Notes under the pieces: generated by a model
What the model was told of the DNA's origin: nothing
What the model saw: the letters and a program-made list of their open reading frames with translations, nothing else
The model's database searches: none
Source: a virus
Direction: 5' to 3' (one strand)
DNA: 64,000 bases
Virus record (IMG/VR): IMGVR_UViG_3300018080_000098
Span: 124,001 to 188,000 of that record
Shown here: positions 47,946 to 61,115 of the stretch, one piece after another
Layout of the letters: each line of letters begins with the position of its first letter
Numbering within the stretch: the stretch's first letter is position 1
Made by a program: the position numbers and the translations under genes

Positions 47946-48569
47946 ATGCCGAGGAAGAAAGCCCAGCAAGTAACATTGGTAGGAGTTCGCGGAGCCAAGC
48001 TGCCTGTCTCCGAGTGTCTGTTGGTAAGCGAGGACGCTGACAGCTACGTGGTACAGGCGGTCCGGAAGACACGCGGGCGTGCAGCGAACAAGCTCGCCAC
48101 GTACGTGCTGCCGAAGTCGATGGTGCAGTACTATTATTCGGAGGAGGACATCGAGGGTGACGTTGACGGTGTCCCCGTGGCGGCTGCGAAGGCTGCTCCT
48201 CGCGCGGCAGCCAAGAAACCCGCAGCGAAAAAGAAGGTGGCGAAGAAACCCGCAGCGAAAAAGAAGGTGGCGAAGAAGGCCGCTGCTCCGAAGAAGCGTG
48301 GTCGTCCGAAGGGCAGCAAGAACAAGCCCAAGGAAGGTGCTGCTGCTCCGAAGAAGCGTGGTCGGCCTAAGGGCTCGAAGAACAAGTCCAAGGAAGGTGC
48401 TGCTGCTCCGAAGAAGCGTGGTCGTCCGAAGGGCAGCAAGAACAAGCCCAAGGAAGGTGCTGCTGCTCCGAAGAAGCGTGGTCGGCCTAAGGGCTCGAAG
48501 AACAAGTCCAAGGATGCCGGTTCGGCCAAAGCGAATAAAGCTGCATCACTTTTCGATGAGAGCTTCTAG
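47946..48569 (+). CDS. AT-hook / histone H1-tail-like DNA-binding protein
   Basis: A 207-residue protein. Residues 1-75 form a small folded domain (VTLVGVRGAKLPVSECLLVS). The remainder is Ala/Lys/Pro-rich with two KKPAAKKKVA units and four 20-residue units each containing the AT-hook core RGRPKGSKNK. It would bind the minor groove of AT-rich DNA and could compact DNA or recruit proteins. It ends in SLFDESF, like known clamp-binding tails (see findings). GGAGG precedes the ATG. Confidence 0.8.
   Translation: MPRKKAQQVTLVGVRGAKLPVSECLLVSEDADSYVVQAVRKTRGRAANKLATYVLPKSMVQYYYSEEDIEGDVDGVPVAAAKAAPRAAAKKPAAKKKVAKKPAAKKKVAKKAAAPKKRGRPKGSKNKPKEGAAAPKKRGRPKGSKNKSKEGAAAPKKRGRPKGSKNKPKEGAAAPKKRGRPKGSKNKSKDAGSAKANKAASLFDESF
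48283..48522 (+). repeat. Four 60-bp tandem repeats coding the AT hooks
   Basis: Four in-frame 60-bp units alternate in an A-B-A-B pattern: units 1 and 3 share one spelling (GTCGTCCGAAGGGCAGC), units 2 and 4 another (GTCGGCCTAAGGGCTCG). This points to duplication of a 120-bp pair after an older duplication. A shorter 30-bp repeat coding KKPAAKKKVA lies just before (about 48212-48271). Confidence 0.85.
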
Positions 48570-50509: not shown

Positions 50510-50938
50510 ATGAGCGCCCCTTCGCACATCAAGTACAAAGGCGCTACGTATCGCCGTCGCTGCCGGGTGGCCGTATGGGAACCCTCTAAAGGTGAGAAGA
50601 ATTTCAGCGCAGCTTCTTTGCTGGAAGCTTTTCCAGACCTTTCCGAAGGGGTAGTCAACCAGCTTGCCGAAGATGCTAAAGGTGTCTACGGTAAGAACGC
50701 CTCAGCTTTCTTGGAAAAGGCCGATACCGCTATCGGCGGTTTCGGTGTAGAAGCTGTTCGTTCTGAAGGTGCGTGGGATTCCTACTACGGTGACGTCGTT
50801 GCCGAATATGTAAATACTGGCGATACGTACAACGCAACCCTTCTCCACGACATCGAAGATGATGAGATCTACTTGACGACATATGGAGATTGGGTTCAGG
50901 CCTGGGAATACGAGAAGGAAAAAGAGGACAATCAATGA
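50510..50938 (+). CDS. Motif protein 1 (IKYKGATYRRR at N-terminus)
   Basis: A 142-residue protein starting at ATG 50510, 13 bases after the previous stop (GAGGGAG upstream). Residues 7-17 are IKYKGATYRRR, the motif shared by the proteins of this region. The rest is an alpha/beta domain of unknown type (AASLLEAFPDLSEGVVNQL, GDTYNATLLHDIEDDE) with acidic character. Its stop overlaps the next start (ATGA). Confidence 0.6.
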   Translation: MSAPSHIKYKGATYRRRCRVAVWEPSKGEKNFSAASLLEAFPDLSEGVVNQLAEDAKGVYGKNASAFLEKADTAIGGFGVEAVRSEGAWDSYYGDVVAEYVNTGDTYNATLLHDIEDDEIYLTTYGDWVQAWEYEKEKEDNQ

Positions 50939-51645
50939 CCACTCCCAAGTACATCCGTGTAGCTGGGCAGCTTTACCGTCAGCGTGAAGAGGAAATTCCT
51001 GCGTTCGTCAAGCACGACGGCTGGATCTACAAGCTCGCACAGACGGGAGCAGAGAACGTCGCTGCTATCGACGCACTTACCAAGCTGTCAAACCTGGCGA
51101 AGAAAATGGCCGACAGCGTAAAGGACCAGCAGATCTCCAAATTGCTTCAACAGGCTTACGGAGAGCTCGGTGTCCTCGCTACCAAGCTGGCCAAAGGTGA
51201 CTTCGAGGCGAAGTCCGCTGCGTTGAAAAACTGGGAAGACCTCAAAAAGGGCCTTTCCCAGTTCGCCCAACAGCTCGAAAAAGCGCAGCTGTCCAAACTC
51301 AGCAGTGCACTCACCAAGATGCTACAGGACAGCGATACCGCCCTTTCCGAACTCCAGAAAGCCGAAGGACTCGGCGCCGAGTTCGGTACCCCGGGTGGCG
51401 TCACTCCTTCTGGTAAGCCCAGCGTCGATTGGGGAGAGCACGCGCCGAAGAAGGATGAGCCTCAGCCGCTGCACGCGTCTACCGTGCCGGGCTTTTTCAC
51501 ACACAAGGGTGAGCAGTACCGTCCTCTCCTCCCGATTACCAAGGAAGCCGTTGCCTGGGCGACGTCTACCGATCCGAACGTGATCGCGGAGCGAAAGACG
51601 TTCCCACCCCTCGTGGTGCACCTGCTCGCGTCCGGTGTAGCGTAG
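50935..51645 (+). CDS. Motif protein 2 (YIRVAGQLYRQ)
   Basis: A 236-residue protein. The N-terminus has YIRVAGQLYRQ at residues 6-16 and a second, weaker copy HDGWIYKLAQ about 15 residues on. Residues 40-145 are a long helical bundle (Lys/Leu/Ala/Gln-rich). A Gly/Pro linker leads to a C-terminal copy-like FFTHKGEQYRPL. Start ATG 50935 overlaps the preceding stop. The helical bundle between beta motifs suggests an elongated virion or scaffold protein. Confidence 0.6.
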   Translation: MTTPKYIRVAGQLYRQREEEIPAFVKHDGWIYKLAQTGAENVAAIDALTKLSNLAKKMADSVKDQQISKLLQQAYGELGVLATKLAKGDFEAKSAALKNWEDLKKGLSQFAQQLEKAQLSKLSSALTKMLQDSDTALSELQKAEGLGAEFGTPGGVTPSGKPSVDWGEHAPKKDEPQPLHASTVPGFFTHKGEQYRPLLPITKEAVAWATSTDPNVIAERKTFPPLVVHLLASGVA

Positions 51646-51654
51646 GCCCAGGTC

Positions 51655-52458
51655 ATGGCCAAGCACGGCCCAGACTTCTACAACGTTACCATCACGGCTG
51701 TCCGCAACTACGAACCCGGTAAGGGACCGCCGAGGAAGGCACAGTTTTGGAACTTCTCCCAGGCTGTGCAATCCAACAGCGGGCCATCGGGAGCCCTCGC
51801 CGCGATGGTGGACAAGTTTTTCAGGTACTACCCCAACCATGCTGTCGTCCTCCCTGATGGAGAACGTGGTCAAAAAATTCTCACGTGTGAAAACCGTTCC
51901 GGGGTAGAGAGCTACTTGTCCGGAAGAACTACGCGTTCTCATGGCGACATAATGCTTGAGAGCGCAGATTCTACACTACTCATTAAGAAGATGCGCGCTC
52001 TCTCCGGAGAAACCCCTATAGGTCTCACGCCCAAGAGCGAAAAAGAGTACGACGACGCGCTGCAGGGTAACATGGAATCCTATAAGTGGTGGCAGGACCC
52101 AATCGTGCAGATGCCCGCCCCCATCTACGTTTTAGATAAAGCAGCCGAGTCCGAAGATGCTCCCGGTACCATTCGGTACAAAGGGCGCCTCTACAGACGG
52201 GCAGCTGCAACTTCTTTGGCAGACCTCCCGCCCGAGAAGGCTAAAGCACTTTTCTTTGGCATCATGGAGAAGGTGACAGAAGGGATAACCACCGTTCATC
52301 AGCTCCTCGTGGACGCTGGGGAACAGCTGCAAACGGAAGAGGGAGACGCTACTCCTCTCCTCGCAGATGCTGCCAAACGAACATACAAAGAAGTACTCCC
52401 GCTCATCCTGGACGCTCGAGATATCGCGCATTCTTTAAAGGAGCTTCCCAGTGAGTAG
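51655..52458 (+). CDS. Motif protein 3 (TIRYKGRLYRR in the middle)
   Basis: A 267-residue protein. The N-terminal 150 residues are a distinct alpha/beta domain (DFYNVTITAVRNYEP, MVDKFFRYYPNHAVVLPDGE); the motif TIRYKGRLYRRAA lies at about 171-183, and a helical C-domain follows (about 190-265). The motif therefore sits at a domain border, as if it marked the start of a second module. Its end overlaps the next gene. Confidence 0.6.
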   Translation: MAKHGPDFYNVTITAVRNYEPGKGPPRKAQFWNFSQAVQSNSGPSGALAAMVDKFFRYYPNHAVVLPDGERGQKILTCENRSGVESYLSGRTTRSHGDIMLESADSTLLIKKMRALSGETPIGLTPKSEKEYDDALQGNMESYKWWQDPIVQMPAPIYVLDKAAESEDAPGTIRYKGRLYRRAAATSLADLPPEKAKALFFGIMEKVTEGITTVHQLLVDAGEQLQTEEGDATPLLADAAKRTYKEVLPLILDARDIAHSLKELPSE

Positions 52459-52960
52459 GCAGCTCCTCAGATACCGCGGCGTCCTCTACAAAAGAGTAGA
52501 GGCCACCCAACATCCGGTCAGCGGAGATGAGTTGAAGTCGTTGGCCACGGAGCTTGAGGTTGCACAAACTCATCTTGCAGAAGTGATCGCAGACGCTGAA
52601 AAAGTCACCAACGATGCGAAGAAGCTTCAAAAATCTCTCGCTACCGGAGCTCACGAGGTGCTACGGTCTCTTCGTAGTGACGGAGAGGTAGACCCCAGCG
52701 AGGTTCGGTTGCTCACTCCGGAAGGACGGCAAGAAGGGTATATGAATCCTCTCCGTTCCATGGAGAAGGCCAACCGGATGCTCAACTACACCGTGGACGC
52801 TGCCATCGCTGCTATCAAGACCAGCATCGAGCAGGTCGATACGATGGTAGATGAGTGGCACGCCGCTCTCGATGAAATGAATTCACCTAACACGTCCCGC
52901 GAGCTCACCGCTCCCATGGTGATGACTGATAGTCCCGCGGACGACGTGCCAACGCTTTGA
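52451..52960 (+). CDS. Motif protein 4 (LLRYRGVLYKR at N-terminus)
   Basis: A 169-residue protein starting at GTG 52451, overlapping the stop of the previous gene. The motif LLRYRGVLYKR is at residues 5-15; the remainder is a helical bundle (VAQTHLAEVIADAEKVTNDA) with an acidic end. The helical domain resembles those of motif proteins 2, 9 and 12 in composition, suggesting the cassette arose by duplication. Confidence 0.6.
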   Translation: MSRQLLRYRGVLYKRVEATQHPVSGDELKSLATELEVAQTHLAEVIADAEKVTNDAKKLQKSLATGAHEVLRSLRSDGEVDPSEVRLLTPEGRQEGYMNPLRSMEKANRMLNYTVDAAIAAIKTSIEQVDTMVDEWHAALDEMNSPNTSRELTAPMVMTDSPADDVPTL

Positions 52961-52968
52961 GGTTGCCT

Positions 52969-53427
52969 ATGCGCCCTACTAGAACACTCACAGATCCACT
53001 CAACATGGACCTCGAGGCCCGCCTGCGCCAGCGGTTCGCAGAGTTCCCTCGACAGGCTGCAGAACCAGAGCTCGAGGCAACAGAAGGGGACCCGGTTCCA
53101 GTAGAGCAGCCTCTTCCAGTAGCAGAAGATGGCATTTCTTCCGAAGAGCTCGCCATCCAACAGCTTCGCCCACTCTACGAGAACCTGTTGCGCGCTCGTC
53201 GTCAGCTGAACAGCCTCTCTGGAGAGCTCACTCGAAGGAAGCTCACCGATTCCCAGTTCAAAGATCTAGGCATCGTAGAAGACTGGCTCGGTGTCACCAA
53301 GAGCATCGCACGCCAGTACGGCGAAGCGCTCATTCAGATGGAACAGATTCTCGAGCAGCTCATTGAAGGCGTCATCGCGTATCGAGCCAAGTTCAACAAG
53401 GATCCCAGTTTCCTCGAAGGCGAGTAG
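52969..53427 (+). CDS. Helical protein without the motif
   Basis: A 152-residue protein (ATG 52969, GAGG six bases before). The N-terminal 55 residues are polar and Pro/Glu-rich; residues 60-145 are a helical bundle (LYENLLRARRQLNSLSGEL, IVEDWLGVTKSIARQYGEAL) like those attached to the motif in neighbours. It may be a motif protein that lost the motif. Confidence 0.55.
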   Translation: MRPTRTLTDPLNMDLEARLRQRFAEFPRQAAEPELEATEGDPVPVEQPLPVAEDGISSEELAIQQLRPLYENLLRARRQLNSLSGELTRRKLTDSQFKDLGIVEDWLGVTKSIARQYGEALIQMEQILEQLIEGVIAYRAKFNKDPSFLEGE

Positions 53428-53431
53428 CACC

Positions 53432-53749
53432 ATGGACGTTGGGTTTCGTAACGGACAGGGTTACTACGATCGCGAGCAGCGTCGCACCGATTGGATCACA
53501 GCCTACGACAAAGATACCCTCGAAAAAGTAGGCACCGTCCTGTTCCGCGTTCACGGAAACAAATGCTACGTGCAAGACGTTTTCGTGTTCCCAAATTTTC
53601 GTAGACAAGGATTCGCTACTCGCCTTGTACAAGCGATGATCTCCAACACCAAGCTCCCCTACCAACAACTTCGGTGGGGAATCAAATCGGATGATGGAGT
53701 GGCATTGAAACGAGCTCTAGACCGCCGATTCGGGAAAGGAGACCAATGA
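53432..53749 (+). CDS. Small GNAT-like acetyltransferase-fold protein
   Basis: A 105-residue protein. VHGNKCYVQDVFVFPNFRRQ followed by GFATRLVQAMI is the acetyl-CoA binding motif A of GNAT enzymes (V-x-P-x-(F/Y)-R-x-x-G-x-(A/G)). The N-terminal substrate strands are short, so the fold is minimal. The substrate is unknown; protein Lys acetylation of host or virion proteins is possible. Its stop overlaps the next ATG. Confidence 0.6.
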   Translation: MDVGFRNGQGYYDREQRRTDWITAYDKDTLEKVGTVLFRVHGNKCYVQDVFVFPNFRRQGFATRLVQAMISNTKLPYQQLRWGIKSDDGVALKRALDRRFGKGDQ

Positions 53750-53976
53750 GCCGAGTGAGAGTAAGACGATGCCGGGCAAACTCCGGGAGCCCCATCCGCT
53801 ACGTCAACTACGGTTACGGCCCCGCTGCCACACCAGGCAGACCGTCTCCAGGACGAATCGTGCGCGTAGCTCCCGGTCTCCCCTGGGCCAACCGAGGTGT
53901 GCGCTACCCCGTGCATCCACTCAACTACGTTGACACTTCCAGGTACTTTTTTAATCGTAATCCTGGTTACTTTTAG
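53746..53976 (+). CDS. Small basic Pro/Gly/Tyr-rich protein
   Basis: A 76-residue protein rich in Arg, Pro, Gly, Tyr and Asn (RYVNYGYGPAATPGRP), likely extended or disordered, with an aromatic C-terminus (RYFFNRNPGYF). It has no family and no ribosome site beyond coupling to the upstream gene. It could be a minor virion component. Confidence 0.45.
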   Translation: MSRVRVRRCRANSGSPIRYVNYGYGPAATPGRPSPGRIVRVAPGLPWANRGVRYPVHPLNYVDTSRYFFNRNPGYF

Positions 53977-53984
53977 AGGTCGTT

Positions 53985-54638
53985 ATGGATCAGCACTCGC
54001 TTCTACAACAGCATCTGCAGTTCCTGCGCCGCCTCGCGGGTCCCTCGAGAGCTCGTACGGCCGCGGGTGACTTCGAGGTGTTCAGCACCCATCCATCGGT
54101 ACACATCTACCAGCGTGTGCCTACCATCAAAGCAGCCGTCGAGCTCGTGCACAAGCTCGCTCCTGAGCACCCGGATGTGATGTTGAACGTGTGGACGCCT
54201 GAGCAGAAGCACGCCTACCAGGCTATCTTCCGCGCAGACGAGGGTAGGCTCGACGTGCTCATCGGTAGCCAGTGGAGCCCTAAGGAGCTTCCGAGAGCCG
54301 CTGAAATTATTCGGTATCGGGGAGCTACGTATTACAAGGAAGGGCCCAACATGCCAAAGCCCCCAAAGAAGATCAAAGTTAATGGGCAGGTCTACGAGTT
54401 GGCAAGTGTGAAGAAGGAAGCTGCGCATTACAAACCTGTGGATACTGCTCCACCGGAAACCAAGTATCAGTTCCTGATTTCCTTGGGTCCCAAACAGTAC
54501 GTGTTTTTCTTTGATGGTGACCGACGCTTTCTCGGATGGGCTCCTTCTATGGCGCAAGGCTTGAACATTCCCGAAGATGCAGAGGTAGCAGAGACCAACT
54601 ACCAGTTAGCTTTGATCCCGGGCCAATGGACCAAGTAG
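53985..54638 (+). CDS. Motif protein 5 (two motif copies)
   Basis: A 217-residue protein, last of the plus-strand series. An N-terminal helical domain (about 1-100) is followed by IIRYRGATYYK (about 108-118), a short linker, and KKIKVNGQVYELAS (about 127-140), then a C-terminal beta domain (KYQFLISLGPKQYVFFFDGD). The two motif copies are separated by about 20 residues. The next element downstream is the structured RNA region. Confidence 0.6.
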   Translation: MDQHSLLQQHLQFLRRLAGPSRARTAAGDFEVFSTHPSVHIYQRVPTIKAAVELVHKLAPEHPDVMLNVWTPEQKHAYQAIFRADEGRLDVLIGSQWSPKELPRAAEIIRYRGATYYKEGPNMPKPPKKIKVNGQVYELASVKKEAAHYKPVDTAPPETKYQFLISLGPKQYVFFFDGDRRFLGWAPSMAQGLNIPEDAEVAETNYQLALIPGQWTK

Positions 54639-54641
54639 CTC

Positions 54642-54669
54642 TTGACATCCAGCATCGCTCTGCTACATT
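54642..54669 (+). promoter_or_regulatory. Host-like promoter of the structured RNA
   Basis: TTGACA (54642-54647), 16 bases, TACATT (54664-54669), starting three bases after the stop of the preceding gene. Transcription would begin near 54676. Confidence 0.6.
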
Positions 54670-54675
54670 GTGGCC

Positions 54676-54897
54676 ATCGAAGGATTAGCTGAGTCAATGA
54701 GAACACGGAAACAGACAGCAACGTCAGTGTTGGGAGCGCGGATGCGCTGCGTCCCAGCACATCCGTGCCTCTTCGGGGCCAATTGGGAGAGTCTGTACGG
54801 CATCTCCACCGACCCCGAAGATCCGGGTGGCTAATCCGTGTAGAAGCAGAAAAGGATACACGAGAAAGCCACCCGGGAAACCAGGTGGCTTTTTTGT
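54676..54897 (+). ncRNA. Candidate structured ncRNA with competing hairpins (RNA A)
   Basis: About 220 bases between a host-like promoter and an intrinsic terminator. Helices seen: GTGTTGGGA (54727-54735) with TCCCAGCAC (54752-54760); TCTTCGGGG (54770-54778) with CCCCGAAGA (54813-54821), enclosing GGAGA/TCTCC; CCGGGTGGCT (54823-54832) with AGCCACCCGG (54867-54876), enclosing CGTGTA/TACACG. The last 3' arm is also the 5' arm of the terminator, so the two structures exclude each other. A 45-codon frame (ATG 54697, TAA 54832-54834) ends exactly at the switching arm, so attenuation or a small peptide is possible. No known RNA family is recognised. Confidence 0.55.
54866..54895 (+). terminator. 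Intrinsic terminator of RNA A
   Basis: AAGCCACC (54866-54873) pairs with GGTGGCTT (54884-54891), with a 10-base loop, and six T residues follow (54890-54895). Confidence 0.85.
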
Positions 54898-55126
54898 TGC
54901 TCACACCCAGTGAGCCAGCGTAGATAGGTTGGGACCAGGTTGTAGGTAGGCTGGTTTGCGGGTGAGACGTAGACCCAGATTCTGGATTCGTCTGGACCTG
55001 TGGGACGTCAAGAGAGGGTGAGCAGATTCATACGGCAGCCTTCTTGCCAACCGAAAGGCTGCAGTCCCTCCGAGGGTGGGGCGGCGACGGCGTTCGCTGT
55101 TGGAGCGCCGCCCCACCCTTGTTTTT
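54898..55126 (+). ncRNA. Second hairpin-rich non-coding stretch (RNA B), transcription uncertain
   Basis: About 230 bp without a convincing gene. It contains GCAGCCTT (55035-55042)/AAGGCTGC (55055-55062) and ends in a 13-bp terminator. No clear own promoter is visible (TTGCTC ... TAGATA near 54896-54927 is weak), so it may be read-through from RNA A when its terminator is not formed. The density of helices suggests a functional RNA or a long termination zone between convergent operons. Confidence 0.35.
55074..55126 (+). terminator. Very strong GC-rich terminator between convergent operons
   Basis: GGGTGGGGCGGCG (55074-55086) pairs with CGCCGCCCCACCC (55106-55118) over 13 perfect base pairs, followed by TTGTTTTT (55119-55126). 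It stops plus-strand transcription one base before the stop codon of the facing gene. Confidence 0.9.
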
Positions 55127-55435
55127 CTACTCGTCTTTTAGCGCTGCCAGAAGTGCTTCGAGGCGACTTGGTAGGGTGGGCACCACGCTGGATAGGTAGG
55201 ATTTGTCACCTGCTGCCAAAGCTGTCGCTGTCATCACAAGCTTCTCCATGAGCTCAGCCATAGCGTACTCAGGTGAACTCGTTTCTCCTGCTTTGTGCAG
55301 TCCATTGAGAAGGTTCGAAATCTCGCGATGGGCTGTTCCTAGTGATTTGTCTATCTGCCGCAGCTTCGCGGAAAAGTCTTCATCCGCTTTGCGGTACAGA
55401 TGTCCCCCAACTTTGATGTAGGCAGGAATTTTCAT
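55127..55435 (-). CDS. Motif protein 6 (YIKVGGHLYRK at N-terminus)
   Basis: A 102-residue protein on the minus strand, starting at ATG 55435 just after the neighbour's stop. The motif is YIKVGGHLYRK at residues 6-16, followed by a helical bundle (KLRQIDKSLGTAHREISNLL). This architecture is nearly the same as that of motif proteins 2 and 4 on the opposite strand, a sign of duplication and inversion. Confidence 0.6.
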   Translation of the reverse strand: MKIPAYIKVGGHLYRKADEDFSAKLRQIDKSLGTAHREISNLLNGLHKAGETSSPEYAMAELMEKLVMTATALAAGDKSYLSSVVPTLPSRLEALLAALKDE

Positions 55436-55439
55436 GCGC

Positions 55440-55796
55440 CTAGTCGTCGAGCTCGTACAGTGCGCCCCGAAAGCGGATCTGCTTCGGCGCAGCTTCCACC
55501 TTCCTATAGACGTGACCACCGACCTTGATGCGGTCCGGTACCACACCCGCTTCCTTCTTGCCCTTGCCAGCTTCCTGGCCCTTCTCGGCCAGCAGGTCCA
55601 TCGTCTTCTCGACGGTGTTCTCCGGACCCTTCACCTCGGTGAGGTTCGGTGTCTGAAGACTCTTCTCCCAATCCTTGATTTCACTGGTAGGAACCTTCTC
55701 TTCCGGTCCACCCTCGTTGGGAATTTCCACTTCGGGAGAGTCGCCCAGGTTGCCCTGCAGGTTGTTGTCCACTTCTAGTTTCTTCTCGTCTGCCAT
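55440..55796 (-). CDS. Motif protein 7 (two motif copies at C-terminus)
   Basis: A 118-residue protein. The first 85 residues are acidic and disordered; the end carries RIKVGGHVYRKVE and, after a short linker, QIRFRGALYELDD, which is the C-terminus. Here the motif is a tail rather than a head, showing it works at either end. AGGAAG lies before ATG 55796. Confidence 0.6.
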   Translation of the reverse strand: MADEKKLEVDNNLQGNLGDSPEVEIPNEGGPEEKVPTSEIKDWEKSLQTPNLTEVKGPENTVEKTMDLLAEKGQEAGKGKKEAGVVPDRIKVGGHVYRKVEAAPKQIRFRGALYELDD

Positions 55797-55845
55797 GACT
55801 TCTTCCTTTGCGTTTTCAAAAGTCGTGTGAAATATTTCTCAGCAG

Positions 55846-56193
55846 CTAACCGCCGCCGTTGCCTCCACCGTTTCCGCCACCACCCCCATCCCCACCAGCT
55901 CCTGCGCCACCATCACCACCTAGAGCTCCAGCGTAATCGCCTTCACCGATATCCGGATTCACTCCAGTCTCAATTTGACTGGGGTGCTTGACCTTCTTTT
56001 CCGCCTTCTCCCGCGGGAGTGAGTAGATGTCCTTGCTCTGCTTGATGGCGTCCTGGACCTTCTTGTTCTCGCCCTTCTCGCGAGGCTGCTCGTCGCTGAT
56101 AGGTACGGCGACGGCGCCGTAGTCACCTTCGCGCAGGATGTACGTGGCTCCCTTGTAAATCAATTTTTTGGTCGGTTTGTTTTTACGCACCAT
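55846..56193 (-). CDS. Motif protein 8 with Gly-rich tail
   Basis: A 115-residue protein. KLIYKGATYILRE at residues 10-22 is followed by a charged Lys/Glu-rich segment and a C-terminal 35-residue Gly/Asn/Ala-rich tail without other residues of note. Gly-rich tails are common in flexible virion linkers. Confidence 0.55.
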   Translation of the reverse strand: MVRKNKPTKKLIYKGATYILREGDYGAVAVPISDEQPREKGENKKVQDAIKQSKDIYSLPREKAEKKVKHPSQIETGVNPDIGEGDYAGALGGDGGAGAGGDGGGGGNGGGNGGG

Positions 56194-56212
56194 GCTGAAC
56201 CTTCTTTGCAGA

Positions 56213-56539
56213 CTACCAGTTGATGACTACCTTGGCGTTCAAGGCTTCACCGATCTGCTCCTCTAGTCGATGTTGCACCTTACGAAATTCATCACTCTGT
56301 GCTTCGTGCTTCACGTCCCGCAGGAATTCCACACGCTGCGCTGTATCTACAAAGCCCATCTCTCGAGCCACTTTGCTCAGCGCACTCAGAGCGCGGTACA
56401 CATCCATGTGAGCGTCGAAGAGGGCTTTGAAGTCTTCGTGGAGCCACTTGTATCCTTTCTCCACTGTTTCTTTGTCAGCACCTGTTCGGAGATAGGTGGC
56501 GCCTCTGTACTTGATTTTATCGGGTGCTTCTTTACTCAT
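56213..56539 (-). CDS. Motif protein 9 (KIKYRGATYLR)
   Basis: A 108-residue protein with KIKYRGATYLR at residues 8-18, followed by a helical domain (YKWLHEDFKALFDAHMDVY, VEFLRDVKHEAQSDEF). The motif-plus-helical-bundle layout matches motif proteins 2, 4 and 6. Its start overlaps the end of the next upstream gene by eight bases. Confidence 0.6.
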   Translation of the reverse strand: MSKEAPDKIKYRGATYLRTGADKETVEKGYKWLHEDFKALFDAHMDVYRALSALSKVAREMGFVDTAQRVEFLRDVKHEAQSDEFRKVQHRLEEQIGEALNAKVVINW

Positions 56540-57083
56540 CGTTTCCTCTCCGTGTGTACTTACGCCCTTTGTACTCGATAGCAGTTGGAGCCGAGCTCGA
56601 GGACCAATGAAGCGTCTTCAGCCCTAGTGGATAGATAGCCTCTTCCGGACCTTCCGCTCCAGGAACTCCCTTCCAGTCGGTGATGTCGCCGCCAGTGATT
56701 GGCTCTCTGCCTTCCTCACTTTCCTGCTGCACGTCACGCTCACGTACCGACCAGGGGAAGTAGCTCGAGGCCAGCTCCGGGTCGAGAATACCAGCTCGCA
56801 AGAAAGTACGCACAGTACGTTGGAGTATCTTGTTGGCTGCTTCCATAGGAGCCGCGAGCCCTGTTAGTCGATTGGCCACCCTCCCATACGATTTTACATC
56901 TTCAGGGTCCCCATGGTCGATTTCCCGCTTGAGGGTGTCCGCACTTTCTGCTACTATGTCGAGGATGGTCGCCAGCTCACCTACCCGCTGTCGGGCCTTG
57001 CGGTACTGCTGGTTCTGAGCGGACACGAGTCGGTATACTCGACCGTGAACACGAATGTGTGTGGGAAGCTTTTCCTGAGACAT
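56532..57083 (-). CDS. Motif protein 10 (motif at both ends)
   Basis: A 183-residue protein, first of the minus-strand series; ATG 57083 is preferred to 57107 but the ribosome site is weak. HIRVHGRVYRLVS lies near the N-terminus (about 9-21), a helical middle follows (VGELATILDIVAESADTLKR), and AIEYKGRKYTRRG is near the C-terminus. A TATAAA box is 34 bases upstream. Confidence 0.6.
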   Translation of the reverse strand: MSQEKLPTHIRVHGRVYRLVSAQNQQYRKARQRVGELATILDIVAESADTLKREIDHGDPEDVKSYGRVANRLTGLAAPMEAANKILQRTVRTFLRAGILDPELASSYFPWSVRERDVQQESEEGREPITGGDITDWKGVPGAEGPEEAIYPLGLKTLHWSSSSAPTAIEYKGRKYTRRGNDE

Positions 57084-57117
57084 AGTTCTACTTCTTTGAA
57101 CATACACGGGAAGGTTC

Positions 57118-57123
57118 TTTATA
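57118..57123 (-). promoter_or_regulatory. Late-type TATAAA box for the minus motif operon
   Basis: The minus strand reads AGTATAAAGAACC, 34 bases before ATG 57083. GTTCTTT and AAAGAAC (57114-57140) form an inverted repeat around it. Confidence 0.35.
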
Positions 57124-57165
57124 CTATAACTAGAAAGAACTGAGCTCCCGCTGCGGAAAGCTGTC

Positions 57166-58251: not shown

Positions 58252-58513
58252 GTACCTGCGCACGGCAATGTTCCCCGAGAAGCTAGGACGAAGCAACGGT
58301 TACCCGGGAGGTTCTGTGTGGAAGACACGTGAGGAAGCTCAGGCTTTCGTTGATAGCTTTCCCAACGGCCACTGTCCTGATTGGGAACCTGAGGACTTTT
58401 CTGTCTACGGCGTGGAAGCTGATTGGGAAACTGATACTTACATCTACGCAGGTGATCACCGAGCTCCTTGGCGGTCCTTGAAGCGCAACGCCAAACTAAT
58501 CAAACTGTCATGA
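58214..58513 (+). CDS. Hypothetical small protein
   Basis: A 99-residue protein; ATG 58214 has GGGAG six bases before it. Tyr/Trp/Arg-rich, with YIYAGDHRAPW near the end. No family. It overlaps the SLOG gene by four bases (ATGA). Confidence 0.5.
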   Translation: MIYTFGRTFTYDKYLRTAMFPEKLGRSNGYPGGSVWKTREEAQAFVDSFPNGHCPDWEPEDFSVYGVEADWETDTYIYAGDHRAPWRSLKRNAKLIKLS

Positions 58514-59067
58514 ACTACGCAGGTATAGGCACGCGGTACCCTTCCGAGGAACAGGCAGCACTCTGTTCTAAGATTGGTACGTACCTGGCTGTGCGTGGCT
58601 ATGTGCTCCACACGGGAGCAGCTCCCGGTGTAGACCAATTGTTCACTCGAGCAGCTCTCAAAGCTGGAGGCCGAGTAGTCCTGCATCTACCGTGGCCGAA
58701 GCACGAGCAGGAGTTTCGAGATAGCATACCAAAGGAGCTCCAGCAGTTCGTCGAGGTTCGCGTGCTCCAGTCGAAGAAGAAAGAGCGCGACCATATTGCT
58801 TTCGATTCAGTAGACGAGTATCACCCTGCATCCACGAGGCTCAGTTGGGGCGCTCTCTGCCTGCACGCGCGAAACTATCGCATCGTGGTGCCGGAGGACG
58901 ACCACCCAGTGGACTTCGTGCTCGCCTACCCCAGCCCCCACGGTGGCGGAACGATGCAAGGTGTGCGAATAGCTCACGCGCTCGAACGACCGGTAGTGCG
59001 GTTGGACCAGCTTTCGCCTTCTGAAGCAAGAGCCTGGATTAACGACTTGACGCGCACGCACACGTAG
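58510..59067 (+). CDS. SLOG/DprA-like Rossmann protein
   Basis: A 185-residue protein. MNYAGIGTRYPSEEQAALCSK, then GYVLHTGAAPGVDQLFTRAA and GRVVLHLPWP, follow the SLOG/LOG nucleotide-binding fold (GIGxRxP, SGGAxGxD, LPxP) found in DprA-type and phage proteins. SLOG proteins bind nucleotides or nucleic acid, and in bacteria some sense nucleotide signals in defence. The role here is unknown. The start ATG overlaps the previous stop. Confidence 0.65.
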   Translation: MNYAGIGTRYPSEEQAALCSKIGTYLAVRGYVLHTGAAPGVDQLFTRAALKAGGRVVLHLPWPKHEQEFRDSIPKELQQFVEVRVLQSKKKERDHIAFDSVDEYHPASTRLSWGALCLHARNYRIVVPEDDHPVDFVLAYPSPHGGGTMQGVRIAHALERPVVRLDQLSPSEARAWINDLTRTHT

Positions 59068-59380: not shown

Positions 59381-59452
59381 GCTGGCGTAGCTCAACTGGT
59401 AGAGCAGCTGATTTGTAATCAGCCGGTTGGGGTTTCGAGCACCTCCGCCAGC
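59381..59452 (+). tRNA. tRNA-Thr(TGT)
   Basis: A 72-base cloverleaf: acceptor GCTGGCG/CGCCAGC, D arm with AGCTCAACTGGTAGAGC, anticodon stem GCTGA/TCAGC around TTTGTAA (anticodon TGT), and a T arm with TTCGA and one G-U pair. CCA is not encoded. Confidence 0.9.
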
Positions 59453-59491
59453 TTTCCTCTCTAGTTATCCTCCAATGTACGCCTATTTTAC

Positions 59492-61042: not shown

Positions 61043-61115
61043 CGGGGATGTGGTGTAATCTGGTAACACACGTGCTTTGGGAGCACGAATTGCCGTTCAA
61101 ATCGGACGTCCCCGA
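61043..61115 (+). tRNA. tRNA-Pro(TGG), short T arm
   Basis: Starts with C, as bacterial tRNA-Pro does: acceptor CGGGGAT/GTCCCCG, anticodon stem CGTGC/GCACG around TTTGGGA (anticodon TGG). Only three T-stem pairs are Watson-Crick, and the variable loop is short. CCA is not encoded. Confidence 0.8.

Follow-up and report, generated by a model that had tools for sequence, protein, structure and literature searches.

In phage T4, capsid targeting sequences (CTS), N-terminal peptides of 10–19 residues that are removed by a protease, load Alt and the internal proteins, a task for which ten residues are enough (PMC9026906). One short peptide there selects a handful of head proteins. The ejection proteins of the jumbo phages SPN3US and phiKZ carry long N-terminal propeptides, usually of more than 100 residues, which are cleaved and are thought to target the head (PMC5694885). 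How jumbo phages choose the proteins that enter the head is an open question. Here we describe a peptide of about 14 residues, referred to below as the tag, that recurs on about forty otherwise unrelated proteins encoded by one virus record of 349,793 bases, IMGVR_UViG_3300018080_000098. It was noticed in a 64,000-nucleotide stretch of that record (bases 124,001–188,000; the window), where a sequence-only reading found it on a group of neighbouring proteins.

Like the CTS of IPI–III and Alt, the tag can be a short terminal peptide common to otherwise different proteins; the phage described here also encodes a gp21-type maturation protease, and the tag would load cargo before DNA packaging. Unlike the CTS, it is a predicted G-x-x-Y hairpin, occurs at the N-terminus, at the C-terminus or internally, is repeated up to four times in one protein, and is present on about forty proteins. 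With SPN3US and phiKZ it would share the loading of many proteins in a jumbo phage head, but the tag is short and phiKZ has no copy of it. Encapsulin cargo-loading peptides are short and transferable and dock cargo inside an HK97-fold shell; encapsulins are host nanocompartments with C-terminal extended peptides and few cargos, and they are likened to the tag by description only, not by sequence. Polyvalent proteins injected by phages are multi-domain conflict enzymes with ART and GNAT domains, presumed to be delivered with DNA; they are single very large polypeptides, and the available part of that account describes no shared short tag on many small proteins (PMC7824862). We found no description of the tag in the open-access literature, although one may exist, and the label thus seems to be undescribed.

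A short motif on proteins encoded across the genome

Judging by its genes, the phage under study (G000) is a jumbo myovirus of bacteria. It encodes a T4-type topoisomerase II, a DnaB helicase and a phage sigma factor, its tail sheath is related to those of PhiPA3 and phiKZ (42/36%), and its terminase, portal and capsid protein are related to those of the Lu11/PaBG/BcepSauron group; it has no near match in the phage collection. With the tail sheath, portal and capsid protein as queries we reached relatives that are few and fragmentary: a 260-kb relative (G003), a 33.7-kb relative (G009, also called J), and K, two fragments (L101 and L102) that overlap at the capsid gene and are probably one phage. 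Gene starts throughout are predicted. A window protein used as query found no relatives, and the capsid protein found none in bacterial genomes.

The motif had been given as I-(K/R)-(Y/V/F)-x-G-x-x-Y-(K/R), and all 13 of the listed strings are present in open reading frames (ORFs) where they had been placed. Two further copies, FVKHDGWIYKL (start 51007) and a weak FFTHKGEQYRP (51496), lie in the second gene of the window cluster, and 10 of the 12 genes called by our own simple caller at 50.4–57.1 kb are tagged, in agreement with the claim of at least ten neighbouring proteins. When a 23-copy profile was run on the genome ORFs, real copies scored up to 31 bits, while five shuffles of every ORF gave a best score of 8.9. 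No copy of at least 7 bits was seen in the rest of the window, as had been stated, but the idea of a single local cluster proved wrong: the tag is genome-wide. The whole-genome profile search that had been proposed, made with 27 copies, located 47 places in the 349,793-base record, 13 in G003 and 23 in G009. After curation we count 109 copies in 78 ORFs over G000, G003, G009 and K, with 50 copies in 38 ORFs for G000 alone.

The extended consensus is P-x-x-[IVL]-[RK]-[YVF]-x-G-x-x-Y-[RVK]-[LR]-[AV], about 14 residues. Gly and Tyr are present in 68 of 68 high-scoring copies and Pro at -7 from Gly in 55 of 68, so the core as first described was right and its extent slightly short, since the Pro and the [LR]-[AV] after Tyr are conserved too. 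The tag is basic, with R/K at -3, -1 and +4.

A motif this short might match phage proteins at random, which had been named as grounds for abandoning the tag idea. The 27-copy profile found no match (E<=10) in PaBG, Lu11, BcepSauron, GR7B, Yoloswag or phiKZ (1.55 Mb in total; T4 was not among them), which rules out a generic motif that hits phages by chance. The consensus peptide matched nothing in 50,697 phage records in a tblastn search, which is insensitive at 20 residues, and DNA patterns of the motif searched in IMG/VR returned only the phage itself and chance matches. By these searches the tag is confined to a single lineage of phages.

Selection acts on the peptide

Between tag copies, codons for the same residue agree in 35.7% of cases versus 37.9% expected from codon usage. 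Agreement no higher than codon usage predicts means that the copies are not recent DNA duplicates, and the random synonymous codons indicate that selection acts on the protein; the same figures rule out that the motif derives from a DNA repeat or a mobile element. In 29 orthologue comparisons the tag Gly was identical in 40/40 cases versus 206/335 for other Gly, and the tag Tyr in 38/40 versus 88/126 for other Tyr. Tags are also kept in the cluster genes of G003, though the bodies of these proteins are only 22–47% identical to those of the window. The tag is a protein-level feature, not a DNA repeat.

These data bear on the proposal that the hairpin has no common partner at all, having spread by duplication and domain shuffling and doing no more than cap the fold of helical proteins. 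Hairpins of this sort occur widely in proteins, and a search of the profile against solved structures gave no real relative, only chance hits to hairpins. We nevertheless consider this proposal very improbable: recent copying is excluded by the random synonymous codons, tag retention is near-complete in orthologues whose bodies are at 23–50% identity, and the tag is limited to one lineage and is found on non-helical and enzymatic proteins as well.

Placement and predicted fold of the tag

An ATG lies 7–19 residues before the Gly in 68 of the 109 copies, while 11 copies are C-terminal (seven of which stop 7–8 residues after the Gly) and 30 are internal. Because it can be placed N-terminally, C-terminally or internally, the tag is a self-contained unit. 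Several internal copies sit directly after an internal ATG, and neighbouring tagged window genes are fused in G003, from which we infer that tags at domain borders are probably the N-terminal tags of fused genes; they are best read either as this or as one tag per unit of a multi-unit cargo. Separately, a tagged K protein (L101:5605-7260, orthologue of 288839-290617) consists in part of many near-identical 23-residue repeats (KRRWENLSEEELAEVAKKQSEGQ) and has two identical tag units.

The sequence-only reading had guessed at a small beta hairpin. AlphaFold runs with two-sequence alignments folded the tag into a two-strand hairpin both in an N-terminally tagged window protein (strands 8–11 and 14–17; mean pLDDT 55–56) and in a C-terminally tagged head-block protein (189–193 and 196–200; pLDDT ~35 over the tag). 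Two independent models thus agree with the guess, both at low confidence.

It had also been suggested that the motif is a processing signal, in which case the prohead protease would cut beside it and trim head precursors or polyproteins. Consistent with this, a T4-type maturation protease is encoded in the head block, tags lie at domain borders and in gene fusions, and an [LI]-x-E site comes after 16 of the 109 copies versus a background of ~1.5%. On the other hand, 85% of copies have no such site, the C-terminal tags extend at most a few residues past the hairpin, and the capsid protein and portal, the normal substrates of this protease family, are untagged, which makes a processing role quite improbable. 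The two tested defining features of a T4 CTS, a strictly N-terminal location and an [LI]-x-E removal site, both fail here, and we therefore do not file the tag as a T4 CTS.

Tagged genes are concentrated in the head block

The head-morphogenesis block was identified from matches to terminase, portal, maturation protease and major head protein, and contains, in order, the portal (272584-274992), the maturation protease (278169-278963; phrog_18299, 5e-51; matching annotated prohead core proteases) and the capsid protein (284600-285733; 92% identical in G009). Within it 13 of 25 genes are tagged versus 25 of 444 elsewhere (Fisher 2e-9, computed from crude gene calls and with operon neighbours that are not independent). 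Those tagged head-block genes that are represented in the two related contig sets, J and K, keep a tag at corresponding sites, and genes present only in the head blocks of these relatives are also tagged (J 24317 and 26017; K 1989 and 3276). Portal, protease, capsid protein, sheath, terminase, polymerase, helicases and ligase are untagged.

The basic character of the tag raises the possibility of a nucleic-acid- or genome-binding element, in which tagged proteins would coat phage DNA or organise it, whether inside the cell or inside the head, and would not be docked by a capsid receptor. A topoisomerase IB and a zinc-ribbon-like protein are tagged, and the window cluster comes after a DNA ligase and a basic repeat protein, as this would lead one to expect. 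However, the replicative enzymes examined (polymerase, helicases, ligase and recombinase) are untagged, the conserved hydrophobic positions (I, Y/V, Y and L/V) suit a protein-docking hairpin, and the strong head-block enrichment would need a separate reason. We regard DNA binding as unlikely.

A destination other than the capsid, such as an intracellular compartment, a replication factory or an assembly site, would fit the dispersal of tagged genes over the genome and the presence of a DNA-topology enzyme among them. Against this, core replication genes are untagged and the head block is enriched, and the sigma-factor genes suggest use of host RNA polymerase, unlike the phiKZ scheme. Moreover, the phiKZ shell protein gp54 found nothing in the record at E<=1 in a single-sequence search (gp54 finds itself in phiKZ), and a phiKZ-type nucleus is unlikely because no shell protein is detectable. 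We rate such a destination as decidedly unlikely.

Two other features of the head genes were seen. The portal gene of G009 (L071:9616-13452; orthologue of 272584-274992) has 1279 codons and contains an insert with intein-like sequence (CLAGDTYLP at its start, VHNSG at its end) that is absent from G000. Two genes, L008:15946-17028 and genome 232243-233223, are probable capsid-protein paralogues because their match in G003 is the protein that the capsid protein also matches (226822-227925, ~25% identity), and they are perhaps vertex proteins like T4 gp24. The first of them carries the late-type promoter described below.

Tagged and structural genes have a promoter-like element in common

Three promoter-like classes stand out in the genome. 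One, TAGTTAyTyTcTAaca, lies 34–60 bases upstream of tagged genes and is also found upstream of structural genes; it precedes four plus-strand tagged genes at 5.2, 8.5, 345.5 and 348.9 kb that lie amid minus-strand early genes. With a matrix derived from untagged, mostly structural genes, the upstream regions of tagged genes score higher than others (13 versus 176 regions, p=4e-8), and at a threshold of at least 10 bits it finds 8 of the 13 tagged regions versus 4 of the 176 others. The matrix trained on tagged genes, in turn, finds 6 of 35 structural-and-core upstream regions versus 0 of 64 early regions. In G003 the element is present upstream of the orthologues of connector, sheath-adjacent and tail genes and of two tagged genes. 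We take it for a putative late promoter that tagged genes outside the head block share with structural genes. The T4 late promoter TATAAATA was considered and set aside, with only four copies.

The second class, TTTTCTTGACAACGTAA accompanied by TGATATTT and GTCGGACGGAAAC, is nearly confined to the outer regions, which look early. In a family of strong early promoter-like sequences at 300–349 kb and 0–15 kb (L001, L013-L016), TTTTTCTTGACAACGTAA-N-TGATATTT precedes a conserved GTCGGACGGAAAC leader, which in turn immediately precedes the start codon. The third class, CTTGTAAAAT, is spread over metabolic genes. A conserved element TCTTGTAAAATA, ~25–90 bases upstream of many metabolic genes genome-wide (e.g. 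63383, 157155 and 255660), possibly represents middle promoters.

A candidate capsid-loading tag

The tagged proteins include the topoisomerase IB (Pfam 3e-12), a phosphatase-like protein (phrog_5614 2e-25, DSPc 7e-4), a NUDIX protein in G003 (7e-16), a DUF5661 protein, as well as many proteins that are helical or of low complexity and have no relatives. ADP-ribosyltransferase-like domains, suspected by eye in two tagged proteins, were unconfirmed by Pfam and PDB sequence searches and were not used. By analogy, this mixture seems closer to the proteins that T4 and other jumbo phages carry internally and deliver than to a single pathway.

A short element that is present on many unrelated late and head-block proteins, is kept while their bodies diverge and is confined to one lineage points to a loading or docking tag. 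Shared docking or capsid targeting, one of the functions first suggested for the motif, is the best-supported reading, on the basis of head-block enrichment, the late-type promoter, retention in orthologues and the tagged new genes of the block. We think it reasonably probable that the motif is a capsid-loading tag, similar to the T4 CTS in its working but distinct in sequence, predicted fold and placement. Several observations weigh against it. About two-thirds of the tagged genes lie outside the head block, and 10 of them make up the tagged part of the window cluster, which has genes for DNA ligase and recombination next to it. The T4 tag is N-terminal and cleaved, whereas the tag here lacks a consistent cleavage site and can also sit at the C-terminus or internally. 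The hairpin models are of low confidence (pLDDT ~35–60 over the tag), and the promoter-like element was first noticed upstream of tagged genes and then sought elsewhere, which leaves the enrichment test not fully independent.

Under the capsid-loading reading, a jumbo-myovirus lineage would add a beta-hairpin tag of ~14 residues to about forty proteins and thereby load them into the assembling head. The tagged genes would be transcribed late with the structural genes, as their common promoter-like element suggests, and the hairpin would dock on a common receptor in the prohead interior, which could be the inner face of the capsid protein, the core or scaffold, or the portal. The untagged part (a helix bundle, the topoisomerase IB, the phosphatase-like or NUDIX domain, or another) would then be carried in the capsid, and part of this cargo may be delivered into the host with the DNA. 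More tentatively, the tag could be a modular cargo-loading code, in which one prohead receptor reads the 14-residue hairpin at either end of or inside almost any protein and a changing set of about forty structural and host-takeover proteins is packaged, with new ones recruited by gaining the tag. If the tag does load cargo, about forty proteins of the virion interior or for delivery, most of them lacking known relatives, could be predicted from the sequence of each genome at once, and a small transferable peptide would become available for bringing proteins into large capsids.

The window cluster and its surroundings

The plus-strand part of the window cluster begins with a gene for a 142-aa protein with an alpha/beta body (50510..50938), tagged near the N-terminus at 50519-50560 (APSHIKYKGATYRR). 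The next gene (50935..51645; 236 aa, helical) has tags at 50944-50985 (PKYIRVAGQLYRQR) and 50998-51039 (PAFVKHDGWIYKLA) and a weak copy at 51487-51528; its G003 orthologue has two N-terminal tags and one C-terminal tag. It is followed by 51655..52458 (267 aa), with a tag at a domain border (52162-52203; PGTIRYKGRLYRRA), and by 52451..52960 (169 aa, helical), which has a GTG start with a Shine-Dalgarno sequence and an N-terminal tag at 52457-52498 (SRQLLRYRGVLYKRV); in G003 these two genes are a single fused ORF of 436 aa. Two plus-strand genes within the cluster are untagged, 52957..53427 and the GNAT acetyltransferase-like 53291..53749 (Acetyltransf_1, 2e-7). The last plus-strand member, 53985..54638 (217 aa), is tagged at 54300-54341 and 54363-54404 and probably represents two fused tagged units, since an internal ATG with AAGGAAGG seven bases upstream (54.35 kb) lies between its tags.

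On the minus strand, 55127..55435 (102 aa) has an N-terminal tag at 55385-55426 (PAYIKVGGHLYRKA), while 55440..55796 (118 aa, acidic body) has tandem C-terminal tags at 55497-55538 and 55446-55487, the second of which runs up to the stop codon. The gene at 55846..56193 (115 aa, with a Gly-rich tail) is tagged at 56131-56172 (PTKKLIYKGATYIL), and 56213..56539, which encodes a 108-aa helical bundle, has an N-terminal tag at 56483-56524 (PDKIKYRGATYLRT) that was modelled as a two-strand hairpin. The first gene of this strand, 56532..57083 (183 aa), is tagged at both ends, N-terminally at 57024-57065 (PTHIRVHGRVYRLV) and C-terminally at 56547-56588 (PTAIEYKGRKYTRR), and a putative late promoter, TAGTTATAGTATAAAG (57117..57132, minus strand), lies 49 bases upstream of it.

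Just upstream of the cluster, window 47946-48569 encodes a basic protein with AAKKPAAKKKV and four KRGRPKGSKNK repeats, resembling a histone-H1 or AT-hook tail. Beyond the other end, the protein encoded at window 58468-59067 begins NYAGIGTRYPSEEQAALC...LHTGAAPGVDQLF and, judged by eye, is DprA/SLOG-like; G003 has a similar gene after its own tagged cluster (210442-211536). Further on in the window are a tRNA-Thr (TGT) at 59381-59453 and a tRNA-Pro (TGG) at 61043-61115.

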